Assembly: GCA_015956445.1 (NCBI GenBank)
Contig: WIUZ02000007.1
Coordinates: 1,426,001-1,490,000 of the forward strand
Direction of reading: 5' to 3'
DNA from: Thelephora terrestris
Taxonomy: Eukaryota; Basidiomycota; Agaricomycetes; Thelephorales; Thelephoraceae
DNA: 64,000 nt
Each line of letters begins with the position of its first letter. The first letter of the stretch is position 1. The notes under the pieces were generated by a model. It saw only the letters and a list, made by a program, of their open reading frames with translations, was not told the origin of the DNA and ran no database searches. The position numbers and the translations under genes were made by a program. Shown piece after piece: positions 34,005 to 60,083 of the stretch.

Positions 34005-34155
34005 CTCAATCTAACCTGAGCCAATGTAAACTTGACCCATGAACCTAAGCCTAACCTAATCCTAAACCTGGTCTAATCCCAAATCTAACCCTAACCTGAC
34101 CTGACCTAACCTAACCTAACCTAACCTAACCTAACCTATACCTAACCTAACCTGG
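34005..34155 (+). repeat. CCTAA tract, left arm of palindrome B
   Basis: Degenerate CCTAA pentamer tandem, the counterpart of the longer tract in palindrome A; the mirror copy is at about 41050-41240 on the other arm. Confidence 0.7.
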
Positions 34156-35421
34156 TATGGGCAAACCTAACCTACCTATCATGACCTGTTTCAGCCTAAT
34201 GTCATGTATGCCAGCCAAGACTAACTTCACCCAGTTGCAAACATATGACTTGGGTCACAGGACCGTAAAGCAAACTGCAGTCCCCTCACTCTGTGCCCAA
34301 CCATCCCATAAGCCCACAGACGCACATATATATCATCAGCAACCCAGCATCATGCTTATCACCCATGTTCAACCACAAACCACTCTCACCCTTTGTTCTG
34401 TGCTATCTCAAAGCCTAACCATAACTCTAGCTCACCCACCCATATTAATCCTTGTGTGGAATATGTTATAAGTCTATAAACCATATGTTTGTAGGCCACT
34501 TGCTTGTGGGCCCAAGGAGGTGGATGAACTTGAGTTGTGGTTTGTCTGTGAGATGGCACAGAACAAAGGGTGAGAGTGGTTTGTGGTTGAACATGGGTGA
34601 TAAGCATGTGTCAGGAACATGGTATTTTTAAACTTTTTATAACACGCTCTTTCTTCGAACTCTTCTTACCACTTCTTATGTTTTGAATGCTTCACATTCC
34701 TTATCCTTCACACCGATCATTCAAAACACACAAACGCGCATACATTCACGGCAATACGAAACAACCTGGCTATACAAATGCTTCTACAACGTCCTCAAAA
34801 GTCGACTCTATCCACGGCAGGCCTAAAGGTCATCAACTGTCCATCCCGGAGATCGTAGTGCTGGCCCCTCCTCGCTAGGACCTCCCCGAACATGGCGTCA
34901 CCATCTTCGGCACTCAGCTGAACGACTAGTTCAAGCCAATAGGAAGAGATACCTTCGAGCGGACCGATCAGCCTCCCAGATGTCACCGAACTGCTGAACA
35001 CCTGGTCCCACATCTCCATCACTGGGTGATTGTTCGGCAGCACTGTCGACGTAGTCGGCAAGCGACCCTCCGTCTCCCTCGTCGGACCCCTGGGCGGAAT
35101 CCTGTCTTGCGAGTCGAAGCTGGTGGCGAAGCTGGATCTCCGAGTCGACCTGTCGGTAGGGACGGTTGACCCGATAGCGGAACTCTCGTCCCCCACCTCG
35201 ACCAGACTGGTCACCATCCGACTCAACTGGACGAGGATAGGGATTAGCCGATGGAGCCATGTGATGAGCAGGACGGCGTCGAGAGCGTTTGCATCGTTGC
35301 CCCTTAGTCACCGGACGTACCTCGGCGACCCTCGGAGCATCTTCGGCTCGGTCAACCTCCATGACCTCATCCTCGGTCTTCGCCAACTGACGGATCGGCT
35401 GCAAGACGCAGCGCCCACAGT

Positions 35422-38356
35422 TGTCAGGGCCACTCTTCGCCCTTCAGGTACCAGTGCTGTTGGTGAGTCGCAACTCCAACCAACAAGAAACAATGGGGCA
35501 AAGGGGGAACGACTTCCCTATATCCACCCAAAGTCTACGTGGTCCAAAACGCGATGGACAAGCGTTCTCCGGTAGGTTGTCCGAATTCACAGCAGGAGTG
35601 CCGAGCCTCTATCAGGTAAATCCCTATCGTCTTCTGAGGGCAGATACAAGAGCCCGAGGATGGCGCCTCAAACAGATGACTTGATCCAAAGAGCAGTGCG
35701 GAACTCGATGTCGTGTCCGAGCTCGCTTCAAACACCGGTTAAGGATCAAGACTGAGTGAGAGAGGAGAGCGAACGGTTCAAGGAGTTACTCGATAAGCTC
35801 TTCAGTGGCCTACAGCAATTACACCGATGCTGCAAGGAGAAGAGGACTTCCCGAGATATCAAAGATGGGGAGTCCTCAGCTACTCTACTGGTACCTATAT
35901 AGGAGAGTGGCCGGGACATAGATAACCCTATCTAATAATAACTCGGAGCAAAGAAGGGCCGAGAGTAAGCTGGAACAGTAAGCGGCCCGGGATGTAGAAT
36001 AGAAATGATAAAGGAATGACTAAAGGGGTCAGGGTTCGTGAGAAAATAAGAAAGGGGGCCTGACGTCGTGTGGGAAAGGAAGGACAAAGGATAATATCAC
36101 ATGCAAGGGTGAACCAATGAGAGGATGACGCGTCAGCTCGTCCGATCGGGACAACAAAGGACCGAGTGGGGCTTGAATGTCGAGGGCGAATGTATAAGGA
36201 GTCTGGACCGGTGAAACGATGGGCCGAGCCAATGGCGAATAGGGCGCGAGCGCTGTCGAGGGTCGAATAAAGCGTAGTGCGAACCGGCCATTAGATCCAT
36301 CCACCTCCCTTCTTCCCAAGTCAACAATCCCACCAACCAACTACTCACCCACTATGCCCATGATCTCCGATCGTGTCTTCCGTGCTGAGAACAGCACCGC
36401 TACCATCGAGTCTGCGGATCCGCGTTCCGTACAGAACAAGAGTTACTTCCTTCCGAACGCCAACGTGGCGTACCCTAGTTATCGCGAGGTGCGACGTCAT
36501 GTGTCGCCGTTTGCTGGCAACAACTGACATCGCATCGTAGATCTTCGCGATTGCCGCCAAAGTGGATGCTCGACAGCTGGAGGCGACGATAGCCAAGCCT
36601 CCCAACTACTTGACCATAGACGACGAGCTGTGGTACCACAACTTGATCGACCACAAGTTGCAAGAGTCTATGCGCGGAGTCACGTTTGACACCGAGTTGC
36701 GTATGCCATGGGAGACTCCGGTGGCGTCATCGTTATGGGGTCTGCTGAAGATGGGAATCTACGATCTGGGAAACGGCGAAGGAAGGTGGCCGGGGGCGAC
36801 TCGTTCGCAACACTATACCGCAGCCGTTGGTCACCGTCTCTGGTTCCTTTTGAGGACAGAACAGAAAGCGGTGAGTCGGTCTGTGCATCCCGCTTGTGGG
36901 ATAACACTGACAGGCTTGTAGAATGAGCGGTTGAAGCGTGAAGTGAAGGAAGCGAAGGATGATGCCCGCAGGATGTACTCGGAAGCGTTGGAGATGAAGA
37001 AGACGCTGCTCCTGATGAACGATACGCTTCGCGTCACGTTTGAGAGCGAGATGCTGGCGATGCGTGAGGAACACAATCGGTTGATCGAGTCCTTGAAGGA
37101 ACGGGATGACACCATCCAACGGGACTTGATCGAGGTCGACCGACGGCTCAACCGTCATAGAAGGGCGCTGAACGAGCTCGACACCAAGGTCGGTGCGACT
37201 TCTCCTGGTCTTTGTCCAAGAGAGCTCATGCCATTCCTAGGTCGATACGTTGGACGACGCCTTGCCATTGTTGGGCGCTCGAGTCGAATCGATGAGCGAG
37301 CGGTTGTGTCACTGCCGCACTCGTTCAGTGGCTGCGGTCCGCGACGAGTCCGAGGACGAGTCGATACCAGATCGGATGGCTTCTCCCATAGGTGGGATGT
37401 CGGTTGACATATTTGGCTTGTCCACTGACATCCCTTCTTAGCTTCCGATGGGTCGTACCGCACACCTGCGCATACTGATGGCGGGGAGGAGGTCGTTCGC
37501 GAGACGTCCGAGGAGACGGCCGTGAATCCGGTTAGCAGTTCTCCCGAGTTGGAGTACGCGGGGGAGAACGAAGTGGCTGTTCCGATTCCGCCTCCGTCGA
37601 TCTCGCCGGTGCGTGGGCAACGTTCTATCCGTGCTCGTCGTTGGGTTCCTTATCGCGGGGCACTTCGTCCAGCGCACCGCATGCGTCCCAGTAATCCCAA
37701 CGTTGTCCGCCAGGGTGGAGACATCAAATCCACCGTCCTATTCCGATGCGACGATGCTACAGTGTCGCGTGGATCGCGGCGAGCTGATTCCGGTGGAGTC
37801 CGTCGACGTGAACGGCTTAACCGACCTTACGCTCTTGTCGGTCCAGCGTGCAGCGGAGGCCGTTCGCCTGGTGGCTCAACTGACCGAGAGGGTGGAGGGT
37901 TGGTCAGTCCAGAGGACTCTGGATCAGACTATGGTCGATTCAGCGAGGAACCGCCTTCACGCCGAGGTTCAGTTGGCCGTCGCTCATCGTCTGGAGGAAG
38001 CTCGGGTCGTCGAGATGGTCGACGAGGAAGTCGACGAGAATGCCTCGGAGGGGACGGAGGAGGAGGTTGCCAGTGCTGAGGAGTACTGGCAGACCAGGTC
38101 TTGACGACCAGGGTTCGTACGCCTTAGTCCTCGTCCATAGGGTCCGGGCAGATTCAACTTTGTCGGTTTGATAGTCTCGTGTCTTCGCTGCGCGCCTTGT
38201 GTAATATCATCAGTGTCCTTGTCTGTGTTCCTTGATGACGTGTGAGTCGTGATAAAGGAAATGATAAGATAAGAAAGGGGTATAGGTAAGGAAAGTGGGC
38301 GCAAGTTGGGTGTAAAAAAATGGTTCAAAAAGGGAATAAAATTCAGCACGCTGACA
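35422..38356 (+). mobile_element. TGTCAG-family element Cp, nested in C2
   Basis: Plus orientation, 2935 bp, starting TGTCAGGGCCACTC (same first 14 bases as C1 and C2) and ending GCACGCTGACA, with a perfect 5-bp target duplication ACAGT (35417-35421 and 38357-38361). Apart from the terminal words and the gene layout it is strongly diverged from C1 and C2, so it is a separate subfamily. A TATA-like CTATATAGG at about 35895 faces outward; the coiled-coil gene starts at 36354 in the other direction. No mobility enzyme seen. Confidence 0.8.
36354..38104 (+). CDS. Coiled-coil gene of element Cp, at least 5 exons
   Basis: Exons with good GT-AG borders: 36354-36488 (MPMISDRVFRAENSTATIES), 36541-36870 (LTIDDELWYHNLIDHKLQES, LWGLLKMGIYDLG), 36922-37188 (long charged helix, NERLKREVKEAKDDARRMYS to LNRHRRALNELDTK), 37241 to about 37391 (RVESMSERLCHCRTRS), then from 37441 an acidic and basic tail. 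Two tail frames stay open (stops at 38077-38079 and 38102-38104), so the last splice is uncertain. Order of parts matches the C2 gene: short N-terminus, a DDELW domain, coiled coil, CxC motif, charged tail. A structural or DNA/RNA-binding role is possible; no function can be assigned. Confidence 0.5.
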
Positions 38357-41300
38357 ACAGTTCTCCTTATCGGAAGCGGCCAGAGTGGAAGCCGGAGCCG
38401 GAGTCGGAACGGGAACCGAGTTCTCGATCGGAGGCGTCGCATAGGACGACGGGTTAGGCGATGGAAGTACCACCTCGTCGGCGTACTCCAACTCGAACGG
38501 AACATCAGCTGTCCCCTCACCAACCAATTTGGGACCCTCTTTACAGTTGCAGGTCTTGTCCTGCAAGGACTCAACCTGTGCTGTCAACACAGCCACCACG
38601 TTCTCGAGTTCTTCGGTCTAGGAAATGTCAGCTTCCATCATTCTAAGCAATGATGAAAGAGGCATTACCTTTTCATCCCTCCTGGCCAACGCCCCCTTAA
38701 TGTTGTTATCCCGAACCTTCAACCCTGCGATCAACTCTTGATGGTTGGCGACCATTGCCTCCAACGCCTCGTTCGTCCCTTGTTGGAAGGCTGCCAAGGT
38801 CTCCTTCATCTGAAGACCCTCCGCCGACAAACGAAGGACGTCTGCCTTCGCCTCCTTCACTTCACGCTCTAATCGTTCAACCTAGGCAGTCTGGTTAGTC
38901 GAGAGTCATACTCGAATATTCAGACAGAAAACCTACTCGGCTTTCTCCTTCTCGAACGAGCGACCACAAGAGACTAGTGGAAGCGGTAGCATGGCGGACG
39001 GCCCGAGGAACGGTCGCTCCGTGTTCCAACAAGTCTTGATCGTAGATTCCCCTCTGCAGGGTGTACCAGAGCTCCTTCTTGATCGGATGCTCCAGCTCCC
39101 CGAACCTACCCCTCATCTGGAAGGCCACCTTCTCCGCAATTATTGTACGGACCCAGAGCTCGTCGTCCCAGGTTAACCCCTTCAAATGAGGCATTGTCTC
39201 CCTGAGACGTTCGGCGTCCACTTCCGTGACGACCTCCAAGATCTAGAAGCCGTTAGCTGGACCTCAACGCCCCAAAGAACGTAACCTCTACCTAGAGGAA
39301 GGCGTTAGTGCGAACACACAAAGCTCTAGGTCTCCCCCATACCTGGTCATCCGTGGTATAGGGAGTCCCAGCCGCACAGGCATAGGTCTTGCGAGCGGCG
39401 GCACGACGGTCGATACGAGAGATGGTGGAGATACCATTGGCGACTTTGTAGGTATGGTTGTTGGGGAAGGACATGTTTTGGTAAGATGATGGGGAAGTTG
39501 CTGGTGTTGCTGATCAAGGATGGCTCCAAGAAGACGTCCTTCTTATAGCCTAGATCGGTGATCCTTCACGTGACCTACCTCGACGAACCTCATTGGTCCG
39601 GGTCACATCAACTTCCGCCCCTGTACCATCATCGTTGGCTTACTACATCAAGCTGACACCTCAGCCCGCGGGACGGCCTTGGAAGAACTTCGTTCCGGAA
39701 CGCCTAGAACGCGCGCGCATTAAAATAGGTCTCAAGACCCTGATGACCCCTTTATGACATCACGAACCCCTTTTCACGACCCCTCATGACTTTACGATTA
39801 CGAGCAACCCTGAACCCTGGAACACACACGTGGGCACGGGGTATCAACATTTGGACACTGTGCTTCTAATCGGATAGTAACCCTATCTGATCTAGTTGTG
39901 CTTTGGAAGCAGAGTAGGCCCGAGCCGAGAACGGCGGCCGAAGAATATAATCCCTGGTGCCACTTAGGAAGAACGATATTCCCAGGTGCTATGCCTAATC
40001 AAGACTGGGTCTGATCAAGCGATTACGGTTGCAACTCCCAGGTTACTGCCTGTCCGTTGGTATCATACCACCTACCGACAACAAGGGATGTGTAGAGTCC
40101 TCGATATCTCTGGCCAATCGCAGAAGCCACGAGACGGGTTCACCTGACCCTTGGGTGTGGTCTAGATTCAGGTACGAACTTTCATGACCCATGCCCCTAT
40201 TTCTTTTAGGACTAGTGTTATCTTTACCCCTATGTTTCATGCGGACATTTCTTATCTTTTATGCAATCCTTCACACGCTAGTAAGGCCCTTTGTCCTTTA
40301 TTCTCCCACGCGTCATATTTGTTCGCTTCCCTTACTTAGCGTTCTCACACTCCTTATCTCCCTTTGTTCTGGACTTGATAAGGGTATATTAGGGTATTGA
40401 CGTCATGGCCACTCCTTTAGTATAAGTAGCAACTGTGGCTGTATCGTAGTACCTTAGTTTTGTTACCTCAGGAAATCCTCTGCCCTTCTCAGCCCAGTTG
40501 CAGTTAAGGACAAGTCAGAGTTTCTTGTTTGATCCAAGACATCCCCATCTGCTCTCCCTCCCGCTCTGCACGTCAACTGCGCCTCGTAACTATAGACTCC
40601 CAGCAGTCATATTAGAACACCTCGAGCGTCCAGTCGATCAACTGGTGGAGTCATCAATCCTGCTGTAGGGATCAACCCTTGTTTGTTAAACCGAACGAAG
40701 TACGGTTTAGGTTGGGTTTCTCTTTAGGATTTCGACCTGACTTGTAGTGACCTCGGACAACCTACCGGAAGAATAGAGACGTGATCGTTCTCTCACAAGC
40801 TAGTTGGACTAGTGAGTACTCTGCGGAGTCGGCTCAGTGCACTGGTAGTTGTTGGGGTAGAGTGGCCCTGACAGCATGATGCTGGGTTGCTGATGATATA
40901 TATGTGCGTCTGTGGGCTTATGGGATGGTTGGGCACAGAGTGAGGGGACTGCAGTTTGCTTTATGGTCCTGTGACCCAAGTCATATGTTTGCAACTGGGT
41001 GAAGTTAGTCTTGGCTGGCATACATGACATTAGGCTGAAACAGGTCATGATAGGTAGGTTAGGTTTGCCCATACCAGGTTAGGTTAGGTATAGGTTAGGT
41101 TAGGTTAGGTTAGGTTAGGTTAGGTCAGGTCAGGTTAGGGTTAGATTTGGGATTAGACCAGGTTTAGGATTAGGTTAGGCTTAGGTTCATGGGTCAAGTT
41201 TACATTGGCTCAGGTTAGATTGAGGATTAGGTTGTGGCTATTATCAGGTTAAGTTTAGTTTCCATTAGGTTAGAGCCACAAACTGATATATGGTCTATCA

Positions 41301-41389
41301 TGCATACAAACAGAGTCTAATTTTTTCAAATTCACACAGCTAATGGTTGATTTATAAAGTATCTCCTTTCCTGGAATAGTGATATAATC

Positions 41390-41960
41390 CATGGGACATG
41401 GAGAAAGGACACCATTCTGCAACTGATGCCCCATGGGCACAAGATGCTGTTGTACAACCCATGGTGCATGGGAATTGGATAGTGATGTACAACCCATGGG
41501 GCATGGGAATTGGATAGCATTGTACAACCCATGGGGCATGGAAAATAGATAGTGTTGTACAACCCATGCACCATGGAGAATGGATAGTGTTGTACAACCC
41601 ATGGGGCATGGGAATCAGATAGTGTTGTACAACCCATGGGGCATGGAGAATGGGTAGTGTTGTACAACCCATGCCCCATGGGGAAAGGATAGTGTTGTAC
41701 AACCCATGGGGCATGGGAAATGGATAGCGTTGTACAACCCATGGGGCATGGAAATTGGATAGTGTTGTACAACCCATGACCCATGGAGAAAGGATAGCGT
41801 TGTACAACCCATGGGGCATGGAGAATGCATGGTGTTGTACAACCCATGACCCATGGGGAATGGATAGCGTTGTACAACCCATGGGGCATGGGCAACAGAT
41901 ACCATTGTACAACCCATGGGGCATGGGCAACGGATACTATTCCATTACCCATGGGTCATG
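41390..41960 (-). repeat. 35-bp tandem array, right arm of palindrome B
   Basis: Inverted counterpart of the array at 33195-33845, with fewer units and a different order of spacer variants, which suggests unequal exchange or slippage after the arms formed. Confidence 0.85.
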
Positions 41961-43984
41961 GGTTGTACAATGGTATCTTTTCTCCATGGGTCATGGGTTG
42001 TACAACGCGTTGTACAACGTTGCATGGCCCATGACCCATGGAGAATTGTCACGATGTATGGTCCATGACCCATGGAGAAAAGATAGCTGAACCCTGTGGG
42101 AAAAAAGTATCCCGCTGTGGTTCCGAATGGCGATCGGTCGCAAGCTTTATGAGGCGGAATCCGACGAAGTCAAAGCAGAAGTCGATTGGCTTCGCGAGCA
42201 AGGGAAGGAAGATGCTGTTGCGGCGCAAACCTCATCCAACACGTTCACGACTGACGAAGAAAGGCGTGAGGTTATGAAGAGGTTCAACGAGTGAGCATTT
42301 TATTCCTTGTGATTTCTAGCGGACGGCAGATTCACCTATCGTATTCCTCTAGCAACTTCACCAAGTTGAACACCTCGTTGGAAAACCTGTGCTTCAACAT
42401 AAAACGAGACTTCGGTTTTCACACCTCAATCATCGTTGGTGGTCCTTTGGTTCGGGATGATGGCCATCTAAGTGTTTTCATGTAAGCTTGCTCACCTATT
42501 CCATCGTTGGGCCCGAAATCTGACAGCCCCCGCAGCTATGAATCACATGGCTCGATTCACAAGCAACTAACGTTCTCCGAGTACATGGGGAAATCGTACG
42601 ACAACGAAGTGTCGGAAAAGTTCGTCGAATACCTTAAGCATTGCGTTCGTGAGTCACTCTCCCTTGTATTTGTCAATTCCCACTTATGTCCCTCTACAGC
42701 GAAGGAAGATCGTCAGCTTTACACGCTCAAGCCGATCTCGGCCACGGTAGCAACGCCTCCCCCAATCTCCAATGCACTTGTTCTGCCAGCCTCCAAACCT
42801 CCACCAGTGTCGCATGTTGTCGGTCCTGTCCGTACCCATCGCACGTCGATGCAAGCTCGGATGAGAACTAGTCCCACGACTCCCGCTCTAAAAGCCCAGA
42901 TCTTGGCAAATATGGCAATTTCCAAGGCAAACGCTACCCAGGCTAATGTAGCCCAGGTCATTGTTCCACCGACTGAAGCCGAGTCTGTCAAACTCACAGA
43001 GCCTGTACCACCCGTCCAATATACCCTTGACAGCAATCCACCAGGTGAACAGGATCCTCTTCTCAGCCCTCGGCCCCTTGAGATCGGCACCCAAGATGGT
43101 TTATCTCATGTTTCAATGCTCCCCGATGACCTCGATTTTAGTATGGACGATTGTCTCTTCCTCGAGAACGATCTCTCAGATACTTTGTCCTACACTTTAA
43201 CCCTCCCAGATGTCTTCGACGTTGGGATGGATGATTTGGCCCCACCCGCGACTGGGTCATGGACGATCATTGACCACTTCACCAGCGAAATCATCATTGA
43301 CGATGATGTCCCCCCTGCCGTCGCCGTCTCTGGCACGCTGTTCGACTCTGCGATTCAAGTTGAAGTTGTACCCGCCCTGGGTATCCCTACCCTTGTCCAG
43401 ACTCCGCCGCCGACTCTCCTCTTTGCGGACCAGGATGAACGCCCTGACTGGCTCCTAAAATCCACCAGTGATCACCTTCAGTACATGCCTTACTACACAT
43501 CTTTGAGCAGGGTCGTCGACCTTTTCTTCACTCAGGAAGCTTGGCTCGGCTACCCCACCAAGGCAAGCAAATTCCATTTTCCTCTGCACCTTCGCTTGCT
43601 AATGACCTGTTTTGGTACCAGTCTGCTCGCCTTGCTCTACCTTCTTGAAACCGCCCCTCTGAAGTTGCTGTATTTATGAAGTATGGCCGGGACTTTGCGC
43701 GTGGCAACAACGTTGACGCCGAGACATTCGGCAGAAAGGTCGTTGAGTGGTGGCTCACCATCCAACCAACCACCCGCAAGGCGTGGCCACCGACCTACAA
43801 GCCGCTCCCGGAGAATTTCTCATTCGACTACTTCAACTGTGGTGGGCCGAACGGTGTTTTTCTCATGATACTTTGTCTTTCGTGGTGGGCAAATGCACTC
43901 GGCACTGATGCAAACCACACAAGCTTTTTACTAGTCGCTCGCGATGTCCGTTGGGTGCTGGAGCAGATTGCTAGCCGCACTTGA

Positions 43985-44860: not shown

Positions 44861-45348
44861 CTTATGTGTGAATGGATAAAGAAGGGCTTACTGTACATTT
44901 ATATCCCTGCTTCCTAACGAGCGAACCAACCGCGGTCAATTGGGGGTGATCCTGACCACCAAATTCAGCAGGCCATTCTGTAATGATGCCTGCAACGCCA
45001 AGACAGAAGTTAGGGACCATCCCGATGGATGGATGAGGAATGGAGGGTAAGGAGCAAACAACGGGAGGAAAGGTGGTGATCAGGAGGCGGGAGTGCCGGG
45101 AACAGAAGCCGGTCGGGTTTCCCATGAATTCGATGGTTCCCGACGACCCGGAATCAAGGCGGGAGCGATGGCGGGAGCGCGTGGCGGGATGAAAGGTCAA
45201 GGGAGGGAGGAAGGCGGGTATGGACCAAAGGGGAAGGGTCGGGATTGATGATCCCAAGCCCAATTCCCACTGTTGCAACTCCCGCCCCGATGGCAGGAGT
45301 GCTGCACACGACGACAGGCACACACTGATCCAATCAAATACCAAAAGA

Positions 45349-45817: not shown

Positions 45818-45866
45818 AGAGCGGTATTGCTGGTGGCTGGGTGGCAGGGTGAGTATGAGTGAGTAT

Positions 45867-48268
45867 TGTCAGGCCGACGTGACCTCTACAGTTCAATAGC
45901 ACTCTTGCTATCCAAACCTATCGCACACAAGGATCAAACACACAGTTATAACCCTGTTGCAAACCCAGGGATATCGGAAGTCTCTTCACAGACTAGATTG
46001 GAGAAGAGGAGAAAGAAGGAGACAAGGGTCTTCAGGCACTCTTGCTCTAAGCACACAGCAGTAGAGGTCATGGAGAGTCTGATGATAACAAATCTAAGGA
46101 GTACAGGCTAAACTACTCTGAGTATATATACTACTTAGATTTGTGATGTGACTGTGACATGTAACTATCCTAAAGATACAAACACAGACAAACATGGTCC
46201 GTGCGCAGCACTGCATGGTCTGTGCGTTACGTGGTGACTAATGCTACAAATTATCAGCTGATAAACGAAAGTGTGGCGGCCAATAGCAATTTGAGAGCAT
46301 TACAAAGCAGTTACAAAGCATGACGTAGCCTGGGAATGTTCGGAAGGAATGTGGGTATGACTGACTAACAGCCAATGGCAAAAGGGGAGCATGTGACTAA
46401 GAAATAGGGGCATATGATGTCATGTGGGTCATGCGCAGTAAACAATAGAAATGATGACTCAACTCCTGAGTCGTGGAAGGGGCGTGGCATTTCGTTGACT
46501 GGGTCTCTCAACAAACCTCCCTTTGTTATACACACACACACTCAACATGCCTCGTGCTTCTACTCGTGTTCCCACCCGTCGCTCTTCCTCCTACTCTCCT
46601 GTTCAGGAGAACAACTTCAACATCAACCGCTTCTCCCATGCTCATCGTGATGCTTCCCGCCCTTATCCCACTTTGGGAAACGTCATGGACCGGACCGCCA
46701 CCGCCGACCCTAATGAGGGTTTTACCGATTTAGGTTCGGGATGCCGGTTGACATATTTAGCATGTCTGCTGATGTTCCGCTTTAGGATTTAGGGATTTCA
46801 TCCAGGCTTCTCGTAGGGTGTCTCGGCGCAAGTTGGCACGTATCGAGACAAACCCTTATGCGACCGAACTCCTTAACAGGGGTGTCGAGTTCGTCACTGA
46901 GACCAATGAGACCTTCAACTCTGTGTTGGAGGCCAGTGTTATCCATACGGGTAACGTTGGGTCCATGTTGATGGATGAGATTGCTCATGTCAATGAGCGA
47001 GTTGATGGTTGTCGAGAAGAGATCGAGAAGCTGGAGAAGGAGTTCCTCGGATGTCATGAGGGCATCTTGAAGATTGAAGATGAGCAGGAGCAGCACGGTA
47101 TGGCGATTGACAGGTTGAAGGTAAGAAAGTTTGGGTCAGGAGTAATTGACCTTTCTAACTCAAACTTTCTTCTAGGGAGAGGTGATCACATTGAAGGACC
47201 TGGTCCGGAGTCTTGTTGCGAAGACCGGGGAATTGGAAGACGATAAGGTACTGGGACTGGGATCGAAGATAGTTGTCATCTTCTAACCCTGTTCCTTTTA
47301 GGTCCGCCTTACTCGTCGTGTCTCTGAGTTGACCGGAGAAGTCCGGGATCTCCAGAGGAGGTGTAGCGAGCCGGAGGTCCAAATTGAAGAAGAGGAGCCG
47401 GAGGTTCCGTATCGGGCCAGGTCGCCGATCATCCCTAATCGGGCTGAGTCGCCGCCCGCTCGTTTGTTGGTCCGTCACGAGGACAGGTTGGTTCCCATCG
47501 ATGATGAGGTCATTGAGATCGGGAGCGACGAATTCTATCAGAACGTAGGAGTCGTCCGTAGGGACACTCCTCGTCCTGAGTTCGTTTCTACTCCTTGGGG
47601 TAGTCGTCGTCAATGGCCTGCTCTGGAGTATGATCCGTACGCCGAGTTCGTTCCCGATAGTGAACCAAACTCTGATACGGAGCTTCCAGATTACGATGAC
47701 TTGTCGGACGTGGACCCGAACGAGATCCGGGAACAGAACTGGTTGAATGAGGAGTTGGTGAGATCGGCATTGGAAGTAGTACAAAGGATCCAAAGAGATA
47801 TTGATTAGATAACTCTTTTGTACTGTTGACTTCTAATGAATCTTCTTTCTTGTCTATTGCGTGTGATCCATGAGTCGTAAAGCATAATGGTTTTCATAAG
47901 TCCAATCCAAGGGTCAGATTAATAAGCCGGTTGACTTCTGCGAGAGGTCAGCGCGCGACGCTTATTAATACATCCCTTGTTGTCGGTAGCCTGAATATCT
48001 ACTAATCGTCCAGGGGCAACGGAGGGCCAGGTAGGGGGGATCTTCATGTAAAGGTCCGCCGGTACATGTTCACGTATTATACCTTGGGTCTTCTGGGGTA
48101 TCTTGACTAATAGCACGTTCCACGTATTGGACTTTGAATCGTTAAGCATAGGGCATACTGCAGAATAAACAGTTTACCGCCGTGTTTAGGGCAGGGCACC
48201 AACTGACTTAGTGGTGATGAGGCGTTAAATAAAGGAAATAAAAGGGGGTAAACGGCGAAATCATCACA
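45867..48268 (+). mobile_element. TGTCAG-family element F
   Basis: 2402 bp starting TGTCAGGCCGACG and ending GAAATCATCACA, with a perfect 5-bp target duplication AGTAT (45862-45866 and 48269-48273). Repeat R copy 1 supplies the uninterrupted site. The right end is CA but not CTGACA, so only TG...CA is shared there. It carries one apparently intact spliced gene at 46547-47808. A TATA-like GTATATATACT at about 46120 faces outward to the 45867 end. The 3' part contains ACATCCCTTGTTGTCGGTAG (about 47970), also found in C1 and C2. No long terminal repeat, transposase or reverse transcriptase. Confidence 0.8.
46547..47808 (+). CDS. Coiled-coil gene of element F, 4 exons, 366 aa, looks intact
   Basis: Exons 46547-46733, 46786-47120, 47176-47247 and 47302-47808 fit in phase and give 366 aa. 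The N-terminus is basic and Ser/Arg-rich (MPRASTRVPTRRSSSYSPVQ). Exon 2 has LARIETNPYATELLNRGVEF and then a long helix (MDEIAHVNERVDGCREEIEK) that continues through exon 3 and the start of exon 4 (VRLTRRVSELTGEVRDLQRR) as a coiled coil. The C-terminal half is acidic and proline-rich (IEEEEPEVPYRARSP, SDTELPDYDDLSDVDPNEIR). This is the same order of parts as in C2 and Cp: basic start, helical domain, coiled coil, charged tail. The layout vaguely resembles a Gag-like or other self-assembling protein, but no Gag motif, zinc knuckle or enzyme is present. Function unknown. Confidence 0.65.
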
Positions 48269-48347
48269 AGTATGGATTAAGTTATCATGACAACTATGAG
48301 TGTGAAAATGAGCCACTTATCACACTTTACTGAGAAAACTAACTACC

Positions 48348-51300
48348 ACAGCTGGACAGACCAGTTATCCTCGCTGTCGACTCCTGCGCGAACGGCGTCG
48401 GGTACATTCTCTTCCAGATCGGAGAGAATGGGAAGCACTATCCCAGCAGGTTCGGTTCTATCACCTTCAACGATCGCGAGTCTCGCTACCCCCAGGCTAA
48501 GCTCGAGCTCTATGGCCTCTTCCATGCTCTCAAGCACACTCAGATCTTCACCATCGGTGTGCAGCAGCTGGTTGTAGAGATGGACATGAAGTTTGTCAAA
48601 GGAATGATCAACTCTCCCACCTTGCATCCTAACGACGCCGTGAACCGCTGGATATCTGCTATCCTCTTGTTTGACTTTGAGCTCATCCATGTTCCTGCAG
48701 AGAAGCACACTGGAGCTGATGGACTGTCCCAACGTCCTCGTGCTCCAGAGGATCCTCCTCGCGACGATGGTGACAAGCTCGAGAACTGGATTGACTCGAA
48801 CACTGGTTTCTATATACACTGGGGACAAACCCCAGTTTCCCGGCCCAGGACATCGTAAATACATTGTAAGGAAATGGAAAATGTGCCTGACAAAGACCCA
48901 CCTGGTACATCATAAATACATTCAAAATGTCCAGGCCAGTTTCCTTAGAGTGTTGCCAGCACAGGAAATGCTCAGTACATTCATGGTGTTCCTGGTCATG
49001 TGATCTCAGTGTTCCCATTAGGTAATCCTTGGGAACATCATGAATTTTCCCAAAGAAATACCCATGATGTCCCTGAGTGGCTCATTGAAAGAAAACCCTG
49101 AGTGAACCCACAGTTTCCCAGGTCATGTGACCTTGATGTCCTGATTAGGTAATCTGAGGGTACACCATGAATTTTCCCAAAGAAAGTAACCATGGTGTTC
49201 CTGAGTGGCTCATTCACAGTGTTCTTTCCAGTGTTCCCAGTGGTGCCATCATGGTGTTCCCAGTCAGTAAAATTCAAATTGAGCCTTAATGGTGCGCCGG
49301 AAGTGTACCAGTGTGGTATATCCTGAAAGTACTAAAGCCTTTGACCATGATGTACCAAAATTCGGCAAACCATCAGGAAACTGCGGGAACACTGAAAGGA
49401 AACTGAGAAATTGGGAACATTTTGAATGAGTTTATGATGTTCCCAGTGTCCCCAGTTTCCTTTCAGTGTTCCCACAGTTTCCTGATGGTTTGCTGAATTT
49501 TGGTACATCATGGTCAAAGGCTTTAGTACTTTCAGGATATACCACACTGGTACACTTCCGGCGCACCATTAAGGCTCAATTTGAATTTTACTGACTGGGA
49601 ACACCATGATGGCACCACTGGGAACACTGGAAAGAACACTGTGAATGAGCCACTCAGGAACACCATGGTTACTTTCTTTGGGAAAATTCATGGTGTACCC
49701 TCAGATTACCTAATCAGGACATCAAGGTCACATGACCTGGGAAACTGTGGGTTCACTCAGGGTTTTCTTTCAATGAGCCACTCAGGGACATCATGGGTAT
49801 TTCTTTGGGAAAATTCATGATGTTCCCAAGGATTACCTAATGGGAACACTGAGATCACATGACCAGGAACACCATGAATGTACTGAGCATTTCCTGTGCT
49901 GGCAACACTCTAAGGAAACTGGCCTGGACATTTTGAATGTATTTATGATGTACCAGGTGGGTCTTTGTCAGGCACATTTTCCATTTCCTTACAATGTATT
50001 TACGATGTCCTGGGCCGGGAAACTGGGGTTTGTCCCCAGTGATAGATCTTCACACTCCCTCTTTTCATGACCCTCTTCTTTCCATAGTGCATTCCTATGT
50101 TTCGGACTCCCCCACTATTCCTTCCTCTGTAGTTCCCGCTTTCATGCTTCCCTCTTGTTCTCCCACTTCACTTGTTTCTTCCTATTCCGCTTCACATGTT
50201 CCCTCCCCTTCTATTCGTTCTCCTTCTCCTCTATCTTCTTCCCCTCTCGAGATTCCTTGCTCAGTGAAGGCCCTTCGTCGCGATGACAGAGTTTCCCTTA
50301 TCCGCCAGTTTTTGACCGATCTTTCGCGACCTCCCAATCTTTCTGACGAGCAGTACAGACTCTTTATCCGACAAGCCACTGACTACTTTCTTCATGAAGG
50401 TAGCCTCTTTCGGAGGCGTCAGTCGAGATCCCCTCAGCTTGTCCCGAAGCCTAGTGAACGTCTCGAGCTTGTTCGCTATGCTCATGATGTTCTAGGACAC
50501 AAGGGTATCTTTGCGACGACTCAGTCTCTCTCAGTCCGATTCTGGTGGCCCGAGCTTGCCAAGGATGTCCGCTGGTATACTAGGACTTGCCACGAGTGTC
50601 AGGTGCGACAGACCAAGTACTTCCACATCCCTCCTATTGTCCCGCCTGTCCCCGCGCTCTTCCGCAAGGCTCACATGGATACCTTCCTCATGCCTCGCGT
50701 CGGGAACTATCGCTATGTGGTCCACGCCCGCTGCGCGATGAGTTCTTGGCCTAAGGGACGTGCTACTACTGCGGACTCTGCTAAGGTCATCTCTACCTTC
50801 ATCTTCCAGGATATCTTCTGCCGTTGGGGTGGTCTCGACGAGATTGTCACTGACAACGCTGCTCCCTACATTGCTGCTGTTGACATGCTTGGAGAACAGT
50901 ACAGGATCCGACACATTAGGATCTCGGGCTACAACTCTCAGGCTAATGGGATCGTTGAGTCGAAGCATTTCGACGTTTGCGAGGCTATCATGAAGACTTG
51001 TCAGGGCAACGAGGCCAAGTGGCGCGAGGTTCTCCCGCAGGTTTTCTGGGCTGAGCATGTTACTATCCGCAAGGCTACTGGCTACTCCCCCTACTTCCTG
51101 GCTCACGGTGTCCACCCACTCCTACCATTTGATATCACCGAAGCCACCTACCTAGCCCCCACCCAGGATTTTGGCATCACTACTGAGGAGTTAGTCGTGC
51201 TTCGTGCCCAGCAGCTCGCGAAGCGTCCCGAAGATCTTGAAGACATACGTCAGAGGGTTGTGAAGTCTCGTCGGAAGAATCTGGAGCAGTTCGAACTGCG

Positions 51301-51597: not shown

Positions 51598-51884
51598 TGT
51601 AAGCGAAGCGTCACGCGCCTCTCTAAGCGGTGACACCGGTCTGTAGTAGTTTAGCCACAAAGTTTATATTTCGTTCGAAACAGCAGGTCGTATACTAAAT
51701 ACCCAAAAGGTCTCATATTACATAACCTAGCAGACAGTATATAAAGTGTCTAGGTAGATTGGAAACGAGGACGCTTTCGACCAGTTCGCACCTGTGTGTT
51801 TACCTCTAAGTCTCAACTCGACTCGCGTGATTCGGAACTTCCCGACATCACTCCCGAGTCCCGATTCGAGCTCGAGGGTTCACA
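51598..51884 (+). repeat. 5' LTR of the chromovirus
   Basis: 287 bp, TGTAAGCG...GGTTCACA, with TATATAAAG at about 51738. I could not match the bases after it to a tRNA 3' end, so the primer is unknown; self-priming, as in some fungal gypsy elements, is possible. Confidence 0.9.
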
Positions 51885-54800
51885 TTTTTTTGAACTAAGA
51901 AGGATTCCTTGTCTACCAAGACAAACTCTCAACCCGACAAACTTTCTCTCTCTCTCTCTTTTCTCTATCTCTTTTATCTCTACGCTTCGAAAATTCAAGA
52001 AATCCCGCTCGGATTGATCACCCGAGCGTACCCAAAAACATATCAAGTTTCCCACGGTATTTTAATCTTTTATTATGACAAAATCTGATGGACGTCGATC
52101 TGCACAGGGCAATCGGCTAAAACCCAGCTTCGAGTATCAGCCTATCCCCAACGAAGAAGGTAAGCCTGGACAGTCTGAGAAGGACTTAGGCGCCAGGTGG
52201 GGATTAGGTGAACGAGCTGGGCCGCGCATGGCGCGAAAGAGGCTTCCCACTCCGGAACCACCGGGAGGCCTTGGAGCCGGGACAATCCCCGAGGGGATGG
52301 GATCCCGAAGAGCGAGCCTGGATCAACCCATTATGGGCAGTGATCGGCTGCTTAAACCTAGCCTGGATCAAGCCCTCAAGGCCAGTGATTGGCCGGTAGG
52401 CCTGGATCAATCGTTGAAAGATGACAGTGATTGGCCCAGAGGAAGCCTGGATCAATCCTGGGGAGGGGACAGTGATCAGCTCGAGAGTCAGCGAGACTCT
52501 GGCGAACGTCGCGACGGAGTCGCGGATGACGAGGTCAACCCGGACGGTGATAAGAAGAATCCAGGCGATAACTCGGAAGAGTTAGAGTACGCCGATTCTC
52601 AAGAAGACCAATTTGATGACGGTAACCGAGGTTCCGATGGCGACAGTAGTAGTTCTGATGAGGACAATACCATCGGCCCTAGTAAGGCTAAATACCCCTG
52701 GAAAAAGGTATTTCATAAGTCGTCTAAAAACGACGTGGGGTCAGACGGATCACGCGACGTCGAAAATCTATTGGACCGTCCAGACTCGAGGGACGGCAGT
52801 AAGTACTTCCCAAAGGATTTTCACGAAAGTGACGAGGAAGAACAGGATGAGCCTGAACCCGAGCACGAGGAGTCTGATTTCGACGCTCGTTTGAAAAGTG
52901 AACTAGCTAAGATACTAAAGAAGCGCGATAAGGATAAACTAAAGAAGAAACGGCGCAAGGGCAAGGAGCCGGTCCGCCCTAAAGGCTTTGATACCTTCAT
53001 GTCATCAATCAGTCAAGCGGGCGGAAGCGGCGCTCGGAACCCAGCAGCCGAAGCGCTGAGCAGCATTTCCGTGAGGCACGACGAGAGGAATGTCCCGTCG
53101 GGAGTGCACTTTAATAGAAAATCTATTTACCCTAACAACCGGTCTAAGACTAAGGAACCTGAGGAAAATCCCAAATCCTCGAAATCCGTTCAGAAGTCGA
53201 GAAAGAGGTCCCAATCGACGTCGTCGTCATCATCGTTGTCAACGTCCTCCTCGGATTCATCCTCGTCCTCGTCTTCTCCTGAGTCCTCCCCCAAAGGATC
53301 TTCGTCTTCCAGCCCGTCCTCCTCCTCGGCGTCAGAGTCGTCGTCGGACTCGACTTCTTCGACGTCGTCCCAAAATGGAGATGGAGCGGCTAAGAAGAAG
53401 AAGAAGAAGAAGAAGAAATCAGCAAATAAGAAAAGGCGTCCGCTCTTGAGAAGGGAGCGGGAGGAAAAGATGTTGAAACGAGTGAAGATTGACGCACCTA
53501 GTCAGTATAACGGCAAAGCCGACCTCGACGTATTTGACAGATGGGCCTTCGAAGTCAAAACCTGGAAAAGGTTGAACAGGCTGTCAGACGAGATCGCCAT
53601 CACTATGTTAAATAAGTATGTTACCGACAAGGCGGGGGTGTTCTACATGAAGTACGTTGCCGAGAAGGCTAAGATGTGGACAATGACGGCTATTTTCGAA
53701 GGATTATTCGATTATTGTTTCCCGAAGGATTTCAAATCGAACTTACGAAGGAAATTGATGGCTGCGACTCAGGGAAAATCCCGGATCACTGAGTTTATCC
53801 GAGATATTGAACTGATGGCAGACCGGTTTCCCGATGTCAACAGCCGGGGAATAATAGACATATTCTGGGGAGGTATGCATCAGGCAATACGAGTCGAAGT
53901 CCTTAAGATGGGAGCTCACCCGGAACGGTCCGACTTGACCACCATCGCTGATTGCGCAGCGAGAGCAGAAGACGGTTTATTGGAGGCCGAGTTACAAAAA
54001 CAGAAGGACGTACCGAAGGAGGGACGCAGTTGGGGAAGGTTCCCAAACCGAGTTAACGGCCCACGGCCCTATCGCCCGGCAAGGGACGACGGCGGGATGG
54101 ATCGCGTCAAGGGACGAGAGCAGGTCAGAGCCAACGCGATTACCCCTCAACCGAGGATGGACCCAAACCGAACGGATGGAGGGCGTAACCGCTGTGCACG
54201 AAAGGGAAGGCGAGTCAGTCGCGAGAAGCGAGATCAGCTCCGAGCTGAGGGAAAGTGCTTCCAGTGTGAACAGGTGGGACACTCTCAACGAGATTGCCCA
54301 GAGTTGAATACGATGAGACCGCCTGCCGTTAGGGCCAATAACGTCAACATCGCGAGGCTAGAACGGCTGGCAAAAACCAAAGGGAAAGCTGACTTACAAG
54401 TGGGTCACATCTCGATGGTGGTGGACGACAAAGTCGACGATTCGACTCCCGCGATGCATAGGGCGTACAAACGGTGTGCGGCGGCCTGGGGAGACGATAG
54501 GAAATGGTTAGACCCGACGACTCGGTACCAGAGCAAATACGGGATTTACCAGTACAAGACGCGTGCAGGGGACGTGATAGAGATAATTCTCTATGACGAA
54601 CCTGGGGTCCGACCGTTTGAGATAGACGTTAGTCACCTTATCGACCCGGAATTATGCCTTACCGACATGTTGGGCGCGAGAGCGAACACAACCCCGGCAT
54701 GTGTTCGGGAGGGCGGGTTCCGGGATGACGGAAAATATAATACCTGGAAATGGCCGGCCTTGGGATGGTTGAGGCAGCTGTTAACGGACCAACTTACACT

Positions 54801-56788
54801 CGAAGAAACCGGCGAGACGGTGTCAGTAAAACCCTCGTATGAGGGATACGGCCTACACCTCAACGGCACAGACGTATACTATGAGATCACTCACGCCGAA
54901 GTACTTGGGAGTGGCCTTCAAATCGGGCGCGTGCTAAACGCCATGCGCACGGCCAAGAAGACAATCCCATGGGAGCGATCCCCAATGTTCTGGGACAAGC
55001 GTATCACCAAAAGACAGAGTCTAATGGCCCTCGCGACAAGGCTAACTGCAGGGTCCGTCAGACATCGTAAGCAGGGAGCGGAGGGCGTGAACTCACTGGA
55101 GAAGACATCAATGCGGGTCAAGGACCAGACAAGAAAGGTCCCGGAGCCCATAGTCGTCCTAGCTTCAGTAAACGGTCACGAAGTCCGGGCCCTAATTGAT
55201 ACAGGGTCAATGGCCGACTTCATATCGACGACCGTCGTAGAACAACTAAAGTTACAGAAGGAGGTGTACACAAAACCCCTCTCTGTCCAGTTGGCGGTAC
55301 ACGGGTCGCGATCTAAGATAAACTGTGGCACTACCGTCAAGTTTAAATATCAATCCATAGATTGCGAACGAAGGTTTGACATAGCAAACCTGGACAACTA
55401 TGACGTGATATTGGGAACACCGTTCCTATATCAACACAAGGTGGTTATTGGGATCAACCCGCCATGTGTCGTGGTGGGATCTAATGAACCAAACAGGATG
55501 AGCGGCCCGGACGTAATCACGATAAGCTCTGCGGCTGTGGACTTACTCGATGATGGTCTTGAGGAGATCCGGAAACAGCTACGAACGGAGGCAAACGACC
55601 TATGTCCGGATACGTCTAGGACGGCGTTACCTCCCTTGAGAGCCGTGAATCACACAATCCCACTGATAGACCCTAAAAAGATTTACCGGTTCCGACCATC
55701 CAAGTGTCCGGAGGCCTTCAGGGAACAATGGAGAATGAAAAAGAGTGCATACCTCAACACGGGACGCTGGCGCACAGCGACGGGACATAATGCCATACCG
55801 TTGTTGATGATCCCTAAGCTGTCGCAAACAAACGACAAGCCAGCGCTACGGACCGTGTTCGACAAGAGAGAACAGAATGCGAATACGTACAAGTTGGCCT
55901 CACCACTACCCGACATTGAGGAAATATTGCGCGAGGTCTCGAAACATCGATACAAGAGTCTGATCGATGGTAAGGATGCCTACGAGCAAATCCGTGTCAT
56001 ACCGGAACACGTCAGCCGTACACTATTCACAACGCCGGACGGGACGATGGAAAGCTTGGTGATGCAACAAGGGGATTGCAACGCCGGAGCCACTTACCAA
56101 ACCCTGACGAATCACATATTCGCGCCTTATATCGGCGTCTTTATGTATGTTTATCTGGATGACATCATCATCTTCTCGGATTCGATCAAGGAACACATCA
56201 ATCATATCAAAGTAATATTCAACGTCCTAAGGCGAGAGAAATTATACCTGGGACCGAATAAAATGCAGTTCTTCGCGGAAGAGCTGAAGATACTTGGACA
56301 CATAATTGACGCGAAGGGGATCCGTATGGATCCTCATAAGGTTGATAAGGTTCTCAATTGGAAAACCCCTACCAACAAGGATTTATTGCGCAGTTTCATA
56401 GGCGCCGTGGGATTCTTGGCTCCCGATTGCAAGGGAATCAGAATTCCGATGGGACAACTGTCCTCGCTAACTGCGGAGTTAAGGCCTTGGCGATGGGATG
56501 CCACCGCGCAAAGGTCGTTTGAGGAAGTAAAGAAAATAGTAAACACTCATAGGGACGATAGACGGAAAGCCCTGGATTACTCAGAAGGGGCAGACCCGAT
56601 TTTCGTAACTACGGACGGATGCCTAACGGGAGGCGGAGGATTCGTTAGTCAAGGCAAAGACCCGAAAAAGGAGAACGTGGTGGCGTTCTGGTCCGGGAAG
56701 TGGAACAGCGCCCAACAGAATTATCCCGTACACGAGCAGGAACTGTTGGCGCTGGTCGAGACGTTGAAACATTTTCGAGGTGTCTTAC

Positions 56789-59700
56789 TGTCAGGGCCAC
56801 TCTACCCCAACAACTACCAGTTCACTGAGCCGACTCCGCAGAGTACTCACTAGTCCGACTAGCTTGTGAGAGAACGATCACGTCTCTATTCTTCCGGTAG
56901 GTTGTCCGAGGTCACTGCAAGTCAGGTCGAAATCCTAAAGAGAAACCCAACCTAAACCGTACTTCGTTCGGTTTAACAAACAAGGGTTGATCCCTACAAC
57001 AGGATTGATGACTCCACCAGTTGATCGACTGGACGCTCGAGGTGTTCTAATATGACTGCGGAGAGTCTATAGTTACGAGGCGCAGTTGACGCGCAGAGCG
57101 GGAGGGAGAGCAGATGGGGGATGTCTTGGATCAAACAAGAAACTCTGACTTGGCCTTAACTGCAACTGGGCTGAGAAGGGCAGAGGATTTCCTGAGGTAA
57201 CAAAACTAAGGTACTACGATACAGCCACAGTTGCTACTTATACTAAAGGAGTGGCCATGACGTCAATACCCTAATATACCCTTATCAAGTCCAGAACAAA
57301 GGGAGATAAGGAGTGTGTGAACGCTAAGTAAGGGAAGCGAACAAAGGTGACGCGTGGGAGAATAAAAGACAAAGGGCCTTACTAGCGTGTGAAGGATTGC
57401 ATAAAAGATAAGGAATGTCCGCATGAAACATAGGGGTAAAGATAACGCTAGTCCTAAAAAAAAAGGGGCATGGGGTCGTGAAAGTTCGTACCTGGGGATC
57501 TCACCCAAGGGCCAGGTGTCAATCTCCCTTTACATGGCCTCTGCCAGCTGGATTCGGGAGTAGAGACATTCAACATCCCTTGTTGTCTGTAGGCGGTAAC
57601 AGCATCACGGACAGGTGGCAACCTCAACGTACGTCCGAACATGAGGAGGTCGGGCCTAGACTCATGGGACATGAGGGATTACAGATTCGCCGGCGTTTCA
57701 CGCTAACGGCTGCTCCACATGCGCTGAGCTAACCAGAAGGTTCCTAAGGCGATGCTTCCGAATAGCGGCGAGTCCTTCCTCCGGTTAGGAGACTGTGATG
57801 TGACTGTCCACGTGTGTGATCAGGGTCCAGGGTTGATCGTAATCGTAAAGTCATGAGGGGTCGTAAAAAGGGGTTCGTGATGTCATAAAGGGGTCATCAG
57901 GGTCTTGAGACCTATTTTTAATGCGCGCGCGTTCTAGGCGTTCCGGAACGAAGTTCTTCCAAGGCCGTCCTGCGGGCCGAGGTGTCAGCTTGATGTAGTA
58001 AGCCAACGATGATGGTACAGGGGCGGAAGTTGATGTGACCCGGACCAATGAGGTTCGTCGAGGTAGGTCACGTGAAGGATCACCGATCTAGGCTATAAGA
58101 AGGACGTCTTCTTGGAGCCATCCTTGATCAGCAACACCAGCAACTTCCCCATCATCTTACCAAAACATGTCCTTCCCCAACAACCATACCTACAAAGTCG
58201 CCAATGGTATCTCCACCATCTCTCGCATCGACCGTCGTGCCGCCGCTCGCAAGACCTATGCCTGTGCAGCTGGGACTCCCTATACCACAGATGACCAGGT
58301 ATGGGGGAGACCTAGAGCTTCGTGTGTTTGCACTAACGCCTTCCTCTAGGTAGAGGAACGTTCTTTTGGTGTTTGCTGTCAAACTAACGGCTTCTAGATC
58401 TTGGAGGTTGTCACGGAAGTGGACGCCGAGCGTCTCAGGGCCTCATTTGAAGGGGTTAACCTGGGACGACGAGCTCTGGGTCCGTACGATTATTGCGGAG
58501 AAGGTGGCCTTCCAGATGAGGGGTAGGTTCGGAGAGTTGGAGCATCCGATCAAGAAGGAGCTCTGGTACACCCTTCAGAGGGGAATCTACAATCAGGACC
58601 TGTTGGAGCACGGAGCTACCGTTCCTCGGGCCGTCCGTCATGCTACCGCTTCCACTAGCCTTTTGTGGTCGCTCGTTCGGGAGGGGGAAAGCCGGGTAGG
58701 TTTTCCGTCTGAATATTCGAGTATGACTCTCGACTAATCAGACTGCCTAGGTGGAACGATTGGAGCGTGAGGTGAAAGAGGCGAAAGCAGACGTCCTTCG
58801 TTTATCAGCGGAGGGTCTTCAAATGAAGGAGACCTTGGCAGCCTTCCAACAGGGAACGAACGAGGCGTTAGAGGCAATGGTCGCCAATCATCAGGAGTTG
58901 ATCGCAGGGTTGAAGGTTCGGGACAACAACATTAAGGGGGTGTTGGCCAGGAGGGATGAAAAGGTAATGCCTCTTTCATCATTGCTTAGAATGATGGAAG
59001 CTGACATTTCCTAGACCGAAGAACTCGAGAACGTGGTGGCTGTGTTGACCGCGCAGGTCGAGTCCTTGCAGGACAAGACCTGTAATTGCAAGGAGGGTCC
59101 CAAATTGGTTGGTGAGGGGACAGCCGATGTTCCATTCGAGTTGGAGTACGCCGACGAGGTGGTACTCCCATCGCCTAACCCGTCGTCCTATGCGACGCCT
59201 CCGATCGAGAACTCTGTTCCCGTCCCGACTCCGGCTCCAGCTTCCACCTTGGCCGCTTCCGACAAGGAGAACTGTGGGCGCTGCGTCTTGCAGCCGATCC
59301 ATCAGTTGGTGAAGATCGAGGATGAGGTCATGGAGGTTGACCGAGCTGAAGATGCTCCGAGGGTCGCCGAGGTACGTCCGGTGACTAAGGGGCAACGTTG
59401 CAAACGCTCTCGACGCCGTCCTGCTCATCGCATGGCTCCATCGGCTTACCCATACCCGCGTCCAGTTGAGTCAGATGGTGACCAGTCTGGTCGAGATAGG
59501 GGACGAGAGTTCCGCTATCGGATCAACCGCCCCTACCGACAGGTCGAGTCGGAGATCCAGCTTCGCCACCAGCTTCGACTCGCAAGACAGGATTCCGCCC
59601 AGGGGTCCGACGAGGGAGACGGAGGGTCGCTTGCCGACTACGTCGATAGTGCTGTCGAGCAGTCACCCGGTGATGGAGATGTGGGACCAGGTGTTCCGCA

Positions 59701-60083
59701 GTTCGGTGACATCTGGGAGGCTGATCGGTCCGCTCGAAGGCATCTCTTCCTATCGGCTTGAACTGGTTGTTCAGCTGAGTGCCAAAGATGGTGACGCCAT
59801 GTTTGGGGAGGTCCTCGCAAGGAGGGGCCAGCACTTCGATCTCCGGGATGGAAGGGTGATGACCATGAGGCCTGCCGTAGATAGAGTCGACTTTTGAGGA
59901 CGTTGTATAAGCATTAGTATAGCCATGTTGTTCCGTATTGCCGTGAATGTATGCGCGTTTTGTGTGTTTTGAATGAATGGTGTGAAGGATAAGGAGTGTA
60001 AAGCATTCAAACATAAGAAGTGGTAAGAAGAGTTCGAAGAAAGAGCGTGTTATAAAAAGTTTAAAAATACCATGTTCCTGACA
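56789..60083 (+). mobile_element. TGTCAG-family element C1, inside the chromovirus
   Basis: 3295 bp, starts TGTCAGGGCCACTC and ends ATGTTCCTGACA, perfect 5-bp target duplication CTTAC (56784-56788 and 60084-60088). It is the same subfamily as C2 (34609-40873), with near-identical ends and gene. Being inside a young retrotransposon, it moved recently. The left 450 bp appear to be transcribed outward (TATA-like element near 57240 on the minus strand); the coiled-coil gene begins at 58167. It carries the word CATCCCTTGTTGTC at about 57570, shared with C2 and F. No mobility enzyme and no terminal repeats beyond TGTCAGG/CCTGACA. Confidence 0.85.
58167..59897 (+). pseudogene. Coiled-coil gene of element C1, probably broken
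   Basis: Begins MSFPNNHTYKVANGISTISR at ATG 58167 and shows the same exon order as the C2 gene: DDELW-type domain (58440-58700), coiled coil (58751-58965, VERLEREVKEAKADVLRLSA), CNC motif (59088), Pro-rich linker, then a basic patch (KRSRRRPAHR) and acidic tail (59280-59761). A second tail frame ends at 59897. Compared with C2 the frame is not maintained throughout, so this copy is probably not functional. The predicted product is a coiled-coil protein with a charged tail; no enzyme signature. Confidence 0.5.

Follow-up and report, generated by a model that had tools for sequence, protein, structure and literature searches.

Solo LTRs of chromodomain Ty3/gypsy retrotransposons in Thelephora terrestris hold a predicted spliced antisense gene that may encode an oligomerising accessory regulator

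Introduction

Chromoviruses, i.e., Ty3/gypsy retrotransposons with a chromodomain, have a gag with a CCHC knuckle, a pol with protease, reverse transcriptase (RT), RNase H, integrase and chromodomain, and long terminal repeats (LTRs) with TG...CA ends and 5-bp target duplications. LTRs are usually seen as regulatory DNA and, once solo, as dead scars. The elements described here, represented by three units (C1, C2 and Cp), and probably by a fourth (F), within a 64,000-nucleotide stretch (“the window”; contig WIUZ02000007.1, positions 1,426,001 to 1,490,000) of the 40.6-Mb genome of the ectomycorrhizal basidiomycete Thelephora terrestris (first reported in PMC7550596), share all of these traits, but differ in their LTRs, which measure 2.4-3.3 kb and contain an entire gene, predicted to be spliced and antisense to gag-pol. 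The element itself is an ordinary chromodomain Ty3/gypsy retrotransposon; it is the LTR as the site of a gene that is unusual. As the solo LTR here keeps a conserved gene, what the element most commonly leaves behind could still act on the element or on the host.

A protein gene within an LTR is known from a mouse retrovirus, mouse mammary tumour virus, the superantigen of which is, however, encoded in sense orientation and is an unrelated protein. In the plant LTR elements Grande, RIRE2 and Retand, antisense extra open reading frames (ORFs) are described between pol and the 3' LTR, and for the antisense gene of Grande its own promoter and a nuclear protein are reported (PMC7264820). What these have in common with the T. 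terrestris elements is an antisense extra gene without an assigned function, whereas the T. terrestris gene, compared by description, is situated inside the LTR, is spliced and, in its C1 and Cp types, appears to be dual-coding. HBZ of human T-cell leukaemia virus type 1 (HTLV-1) stems from an antisense transcript starting in the 3' LTR (PMC3185765) and is reported to repress its LTR (PMC6950816); it likewise is an antisense gene for a coiled-coil protein (a bZIP in HBZ), but the T. terrestris gene lies entirely in the LTR and has no bZIP match above the cut-off. The long gypsy elements Ogre and Burro also carry extra genes, and Ogre LTRs are as long as 1.9-6.5 kb, the extra ORFs, however, being described in the internal region (PMC6431247). 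No paper on a spliced antisense gene wholly within an LTR was found in the open-licence literature.

Three questions become testable in one fungus: why a gene sits in the part that survives the element's own deletion, how a trans-acting gene stays selected among hundreds of copies, and at what pace retroelements recombine.

Results

Solo units in the window and the complete elements of the C1 and Cp types

Three of the four units, C1, C2 and Cp, are solo LTRs that belong to a pair of related lineages of chromodomain Ty3/gypsy elements. In the window, they comprise C1 (56789-60083, plus strand; duplication CTTAC at 56784-56788 and 60084-60088), C2 (34609-40873, minus strand; GCATG at 34604-34608 and 40874-40878), which is of the C1 type and is split by Cp, and Cp itself (35422-38356, plus strand, nested in C2; ACAGT at 35417-35421 and 38357-38361); the fourth is the F-type unit, F (45867-48268, plus strand; AGTAT at 45862-45866 and 48269-48273), a solo LTR to judge by its anatomy. 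The initial annotation of this stretch had delimited all four by perfect 5-bp duplications, and this was found to be exact in every case: boundaries, duplications and TG...CA ends are in place in 4/4 units, all of which start with TGTCAGG, with C1, C2 and Cp ending in CTGACA and F in ATCACA. Empty sites were found for all four as well, namely, at window positions 34440-34201 for C2 (96% over 240 bp), in C1 (95% over 300 bp) and many other C1-family copies for Cp, at window positions 15360-15247 for F (91% over 114 bp), and in three related gypsy elements for C1 (80, 78 and 74%, running through the junction without a break). C1 itself sits in a pol frame that belongs to a different gypsy element and is now split into 52066-56853 and 60082-63066.

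As regards the surroundings of these units, the gypsy element hosting C1 spans 51598-63451, has 287-bp terminal direct repeats (99% identical), and has its gag-pol frame split by C1. Long inverted arms made of 35-bp tandem repeats occupy 33033-34356 and 40873-42091; C2 is inserted beside one of them, and the opposite arm provides its empty site.

Genome-wide, the ends were read in 71 single LTR copies sampled by best match (28 of the C1 type, 19 of the Cp type and 24 of the F type; copies L021-L023 duplicate L048-L050 and were counted once). An exact 5-bp duplication surrounds 58 of them (22/28, 14/19 and 22/24 for C1, Cp and F, respectively), while six of the remaining 13 are the LTRs of three complete elements with matching outer flanks and seven are unaccounted for. 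With one mismatch allowed, LTR starts number 609 for C1/Cp (two for the reversed-pattern control), and with three mismatches allowed, they number 218 for F (none for the control). Neither of two conditions named as refuting the initial annotation, i.e., ends that do not recur at other copies and a lack of empty sites, applies. Two C1 LTRs elsewhere in the genome (G000:C23:671349-674652 and 677291-680594), 99.97% identical, in opposite orientation and with mirrored flanks, represent an inverted duplication.

A genome search with C1 revealed paired direct copies ~6 kb apart, plus a tandem of three. Between C1-type LTRs, on the strand opposite the LTR gene, lie a gag of 681 codons, in which a CCHC knuckle is present, and a pol of 1322 codons, in which the Pfam search recognized aspartyl protease, RT, RNase H, integrase and chromodomain. 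The Cp layout matches this one, with direct LTRs around gag and pol in two complete elements, and the Cp-type pol is 61-62% identical to that of the C1 type. Outer 5-bp duplications match in 5/5 complete elements examined (GATTA, CATCA and GATGG for the C1 type; AACTG and ATGTC for the Cp type), all with TG...CA ends, and the two LTRs of one element differ at only 2/3301, 1/2932 and 2/2931 sites in three pairs. At least eight C1-type and at least three Cp-type pol loci were found (35 of 161 candidates scored), versus the 609 C1/Cp starts; the solo copies would arise by LTR-LTR recombination. The previous remark that no RT, integrase or transposase is visible is, thus, correct for the inside of the units, but not for the DNA between paired copies, where the search suggested at the time (two copies flanking an RT/integrase region) was successful for both the C1 and the Cp types, and the proposal of solo-LTR-like units from a retroelement with gene-carrying LTRs has turned out right for C1, C2 and Cp.

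F shares its ends, its duplications and its inner anatomy with the C1/Cp LTRs and would likewise be an LTR; 22/24 F copies are solo by duplication, and no gag-pol frame was seen by eye in the ~1.1-1.4 kb flanks of the other two. Two F copies that lie on the same strand, 2.6 kb from each other, were considered as the LTRs of a complete element and rejected, each of the two being solo.

A predicted multi-exon gene under purifying selection

The LTR gene lies wholly within the LTR, antisense to gag-pol, and has several introns, as predicted from the sequence. In C1, it spans 58167-59897 (plus strand; ATG at LTR position 1379, exons running to 3109), with predicted exons 58167-58298, 58398-58695, 58751-58963 and 59015-59371, after which the reading either continues through a kept intron to 59761 (frame f1) or, with 59372-59465 spliced out, proceeds over 59466-59897 (frame f2). 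The Cp gene spans 36354-38104 (plus strand; predicted exons 36354-36488, 36541-36870, 36922-37188, 37241-37391 and 37442 onwards) and would end at 38079 in f1 or, alternatively spliced, at 38104 in f2. The F gene (46547-47808, plus strand; predicted exons 46547-46733, 46786-47120, 47176-47247 and 47302-47808) would encode the 366-amino acid (aa) protein to which the initial annotation had drawn attention. A 42-bp stretch, 83% identical, is common to an intron of the Cp gene (Cp LTR 1968-2007, window ~37389-37428) and an intron of the F gene (F LTR 865-906, window ~46731-46772), the exons of the two being unlike.

C1 introns are bounded by GT..AG in 28/28 copies. The reading frame, 465 codons long, is open in 27/28, the single exception being the copy in the window, which has an exon 2 shorter by 8 bases than that of the 27 others and is frame-shifted. 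The C2 gene (minus strand) is broken by Cp in its fourth exon. Exons 1-4 of the Cp gene are open and constant in length in 17/17 copies (L058 and L065 were left out of the alignment), and the F gene, with its 366 codons and four exons, is open in 4/4 copies.

Variants are concentrated at third codon positions in the C1, Cp and F genes alike, and, judged by this bias, the LTR genes are real coding sequence. Rough ratios of nonsynonymous to synonymous substitution rates (dN/dS) are 0.06-0.21 in the singly-coding exons, and the single-difference codons of pol include 241 synonymous and 31 nonsynonymous ones; these codon comparisons show purifying selection on the LTR gene almost as strong as that on pol. 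Even the variants seen in one copy only (“singletons”) follow the pattern (22, 17 and 64 at positions 1, 2 and 3 for C1; 15, 3 and 30 for Cp), although, as only 28 C1 and 17 Cp copies were sampled and several hundred exist, unsampled copies may have the same singleton, which is why this bias does not decide whether solo copies are dead. Introns are less variable than third codon positions, with 30 shared variants per 170 intron sites versus 148 per 336 third positions.

Two overlapping C-terminal frames

The C-terminal end of the C1 and Cp genes appears to be dual-coding, with one intron that would yield a basic, Arg-rich tail when kept and an acidic one when removed (the isoelectric points of the f1 and f2 tails being 9.6 vs. 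5.4 in C1 and 11.5 vs. 4.4 in Cp). In C1, f1 runs through a 94-base intron-like stretch (GTACGT...CAG), the removal of which shifts the translation into f2, and f2 is open in 28/28 copies. The stretch read only in f1 (intron kept) has a dN/dS of 0.35 (p 0.003) and the f2-only tail one of 0.22 (p 2e-7), while the overlap itself shows 0.58 in f1 and 0.57 in f2 (p 0.02 each), a variability of 0.233 per site versus 0.33-0.36 around it, and stop-making variants in neither f1 nor f2 versus seven in the third frame. Both C1 tails are also present among database gene models, many 481-aa models having f2 and P0001 (472 aa) having f1. As for Cp, f1 is kept in five database proteins (47-57% identity over 107-157 residues), two of which reach the same stop, and f2 is kept in 15 at 81-97%.

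The predicted protein and its relatives

The AlphaFold model has one helix over residues 124-242, with block values of the predicted local distance difference test (pLDDT) of 75-93 for residues 141-240. In the Pfam search, bZIP scored E 0.52 and 10.9 bits versus a cut-off of 27.6. Relatives with a named organism come from T. terrestris only (70/71, 4/6 and 9/34 matches in three protein searches, in each of which at most 8000 candidates were scored, such that remote relatives may be missed), and the gene models of this fungus comprise 256 member sequences in 70 clusters, plus 61 of the Cp type. Thus, several hundred “hypothetical proteins” of T. terrestris are LTR genes, which should be kept in mind whenever its annotation is used. 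The LTR gene is common to the C1 and Cp types at ~30% identity, their pols differing by 38-39%.

Recombination among copies

Near-identical pairs aside, C1 copies are ~95-96% identical to their nearest neighbour, and beyond ~300 bp the copies recombine freely, as in a freely recombining population. Linkage (r2) among 21 C1 copies is 0.49 for variants no more than 20 bp apart and falls to 0.048 for those separated by over 300 bp (0.050 when shuffled), and among 15 Cp copies it falls from 0.39 to 0.073-0.081 (0.071-0.075 when shuffled), with C1 copies L003, L034, L037, L040, L045, L046 and L047 (near-identical partners and the small subfamily L045-L047) and Cp copies L051 and L063 (near-identical partners) left out. 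The decay is seen in both coding and non-coding parts, with at least 108 recombination intervals, a figure maybe inflated by recurrent mutation. Since a complete element has nearly the same sequence in both of its LTRs (3/3 pairs), the mosaics must predate insertion, and template switching at the reverse-transcription stage would be their likeliest source. The diversity among complete elements equals that among solo LTRs, their internal DNA being 95.8-96.9% identical (rows L068, L070 and L071; L069, which is in the other orientation, was left out).

Discussion

A putative accessory regulator and the points that weigh against it

The reading we favour, with a probability of roughly 0.6, is that the units, which are solo in this stretch, represent the LTRs of chromodomain Ty3/gypsy elements with an LTR-encoded, oligomerising accessory regulator. 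The LTR gene would lie in U3 and be read from its own promoter, divergent from that of gag-pol; its product would be an accessory protein oligomerising through the long coiled coil, and mixed oligomers of the basic- and acidic-tailed forms would tune an activity directed at the DNA or RNA of the element itself, be it in transcription, in RNA export or in packaging, while a gene placed in the LTR would survive solo-LTR formation. Such a regulator would work like the HBZ-type antisense/accessory ones, to which it is unrelated. Candidate promoters agree with this arrangement best in C1, where an outward TATA-like motif (57237-57242, minus strand), facing the TGTCAG end and, in a complete element, gag-pol, points away from an inner one (58094-58099, plus strand) that precedes the start codon of the LTR gene by 73 bases. 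The outward-facing promoter, which the initial annotation had seen in every unit, is orientation-specific only in C1 (57242, minus strand), as the motif in Cp and F is the palindrome TATATA; most simply, given its orientation, it would be the element's own gag-pol promoter. The fuller claim, namely, that of an accessory gene wholly in the LTR, antisense, spliced, overprinted (acidic and basic isoforms with a shared coiled coil), alive in hundreds of solo LTRs and belonging to a freely recombining element population, we would give even odds.

Several observations weigh against this. The protein is without a match above the cut-off in Pfam, PHROGs and PDB sequences, which leaves its function without homology support, and, apart from the coiled coil, the AlphaFold model is of poor quality (mean pLDDT 46.5). 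The dual coding is less clear in Cp than in C1: within the species, the Cp overlap yields 0.60 in f1, 0.86 in f2 and 0.71 in the third frame (39 variants), values that do not separate the frames, one Cp variant creates a stop in f1, and the low variability (0.118 and 0.091 per site) starts already upstream of the overlap; no second frame was noticed in the F gene. An in-frame TGA is present in pol at 3/3 Cp-type loci, and GC stands for GT at intron 1 in two Cp copies (L062 and L063, of one complete element). The counts of intact genes come from best-match copies, and when two copies were drawn from the wider list, both proved to be fragments; nor was a complete F element found among the 24 F copies examined. 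Finally, if a trans-acting protein is supplied from hundreds of solo LTRs, selection should be relaxed among the active copies, yet dN/dS is low, which suggests that the protein acts in cis, that solo copies are silenced, or that they, too, are under selection.

Other explanations

The LTR gene might instead be a passenger, i.e., a captured host gene or other cargo without a role for the element, kept for the benefit of the fungus or simply by its youth, and this would be in line both with the several hundred gene models in one genome and with the fact that no relative with a known role was found. We nevertheless consider it unlikely: two LTR types whose pols differ by 38-39% have the gene in common, the candidates scored (at most 8000 per search) included no homologue from the host beyond these families, and youth alone would be insufficient, as dN/dS is low and the singletons, too, are biased towards third positions (64/103 in C1, 30/48 in Cp).

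Less probable still is a product that restrains its own element, with the solo LTRs acting as a brake. Copy-number control of this kind is known from p22 of Ty1, which restrains its own element, and solo LTRs that keep the gene while far outnumbering complete elements would make a suitable reservoir for it. The antisense position resembles that of HBZ, described as a repressor of its LTR (PMC6950816). Self-restraint would, however, be hard to maintain by between-copy selection at a dN/dS near 0.1, and nothing in the data shows inhibition.

It would be more surprising if the LTR-only units were themselves mobile, with linear one-LTR DNA inserted in trans by the element's integrase and the “solo LTRs” being primary insertions. 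Perfect duplications in 58/71 units, young intact solo units outnumbering complete copies, and F, for which there are units but no complete element found, are what such a process would leave. Yet LTR-LTR recombination, an established process in other elements, results in the same anatomy; one-LTR intermediates were not seen, and the LTRs of complete elements are near-identical, as normal retrotransposition predicts.

That the units are a new class of cut-and-paste or trans-moved elements without an enzyme of their own, as the initial annotation had allowed given that none is encoded inside them, is refuted for the C1 and Cp types by the gag-pol between paired copies, and is hardly credible overall.

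Other repeats in the window

Apart from the units discussed, the window contains a 589-base inverted repeat (48817-49405 and 49453-50041), 100% complementary and with a 47-base spacer, within a gypsy pol region, as well as imperfect direct repeats of 83-176 bp at 30426-31530.

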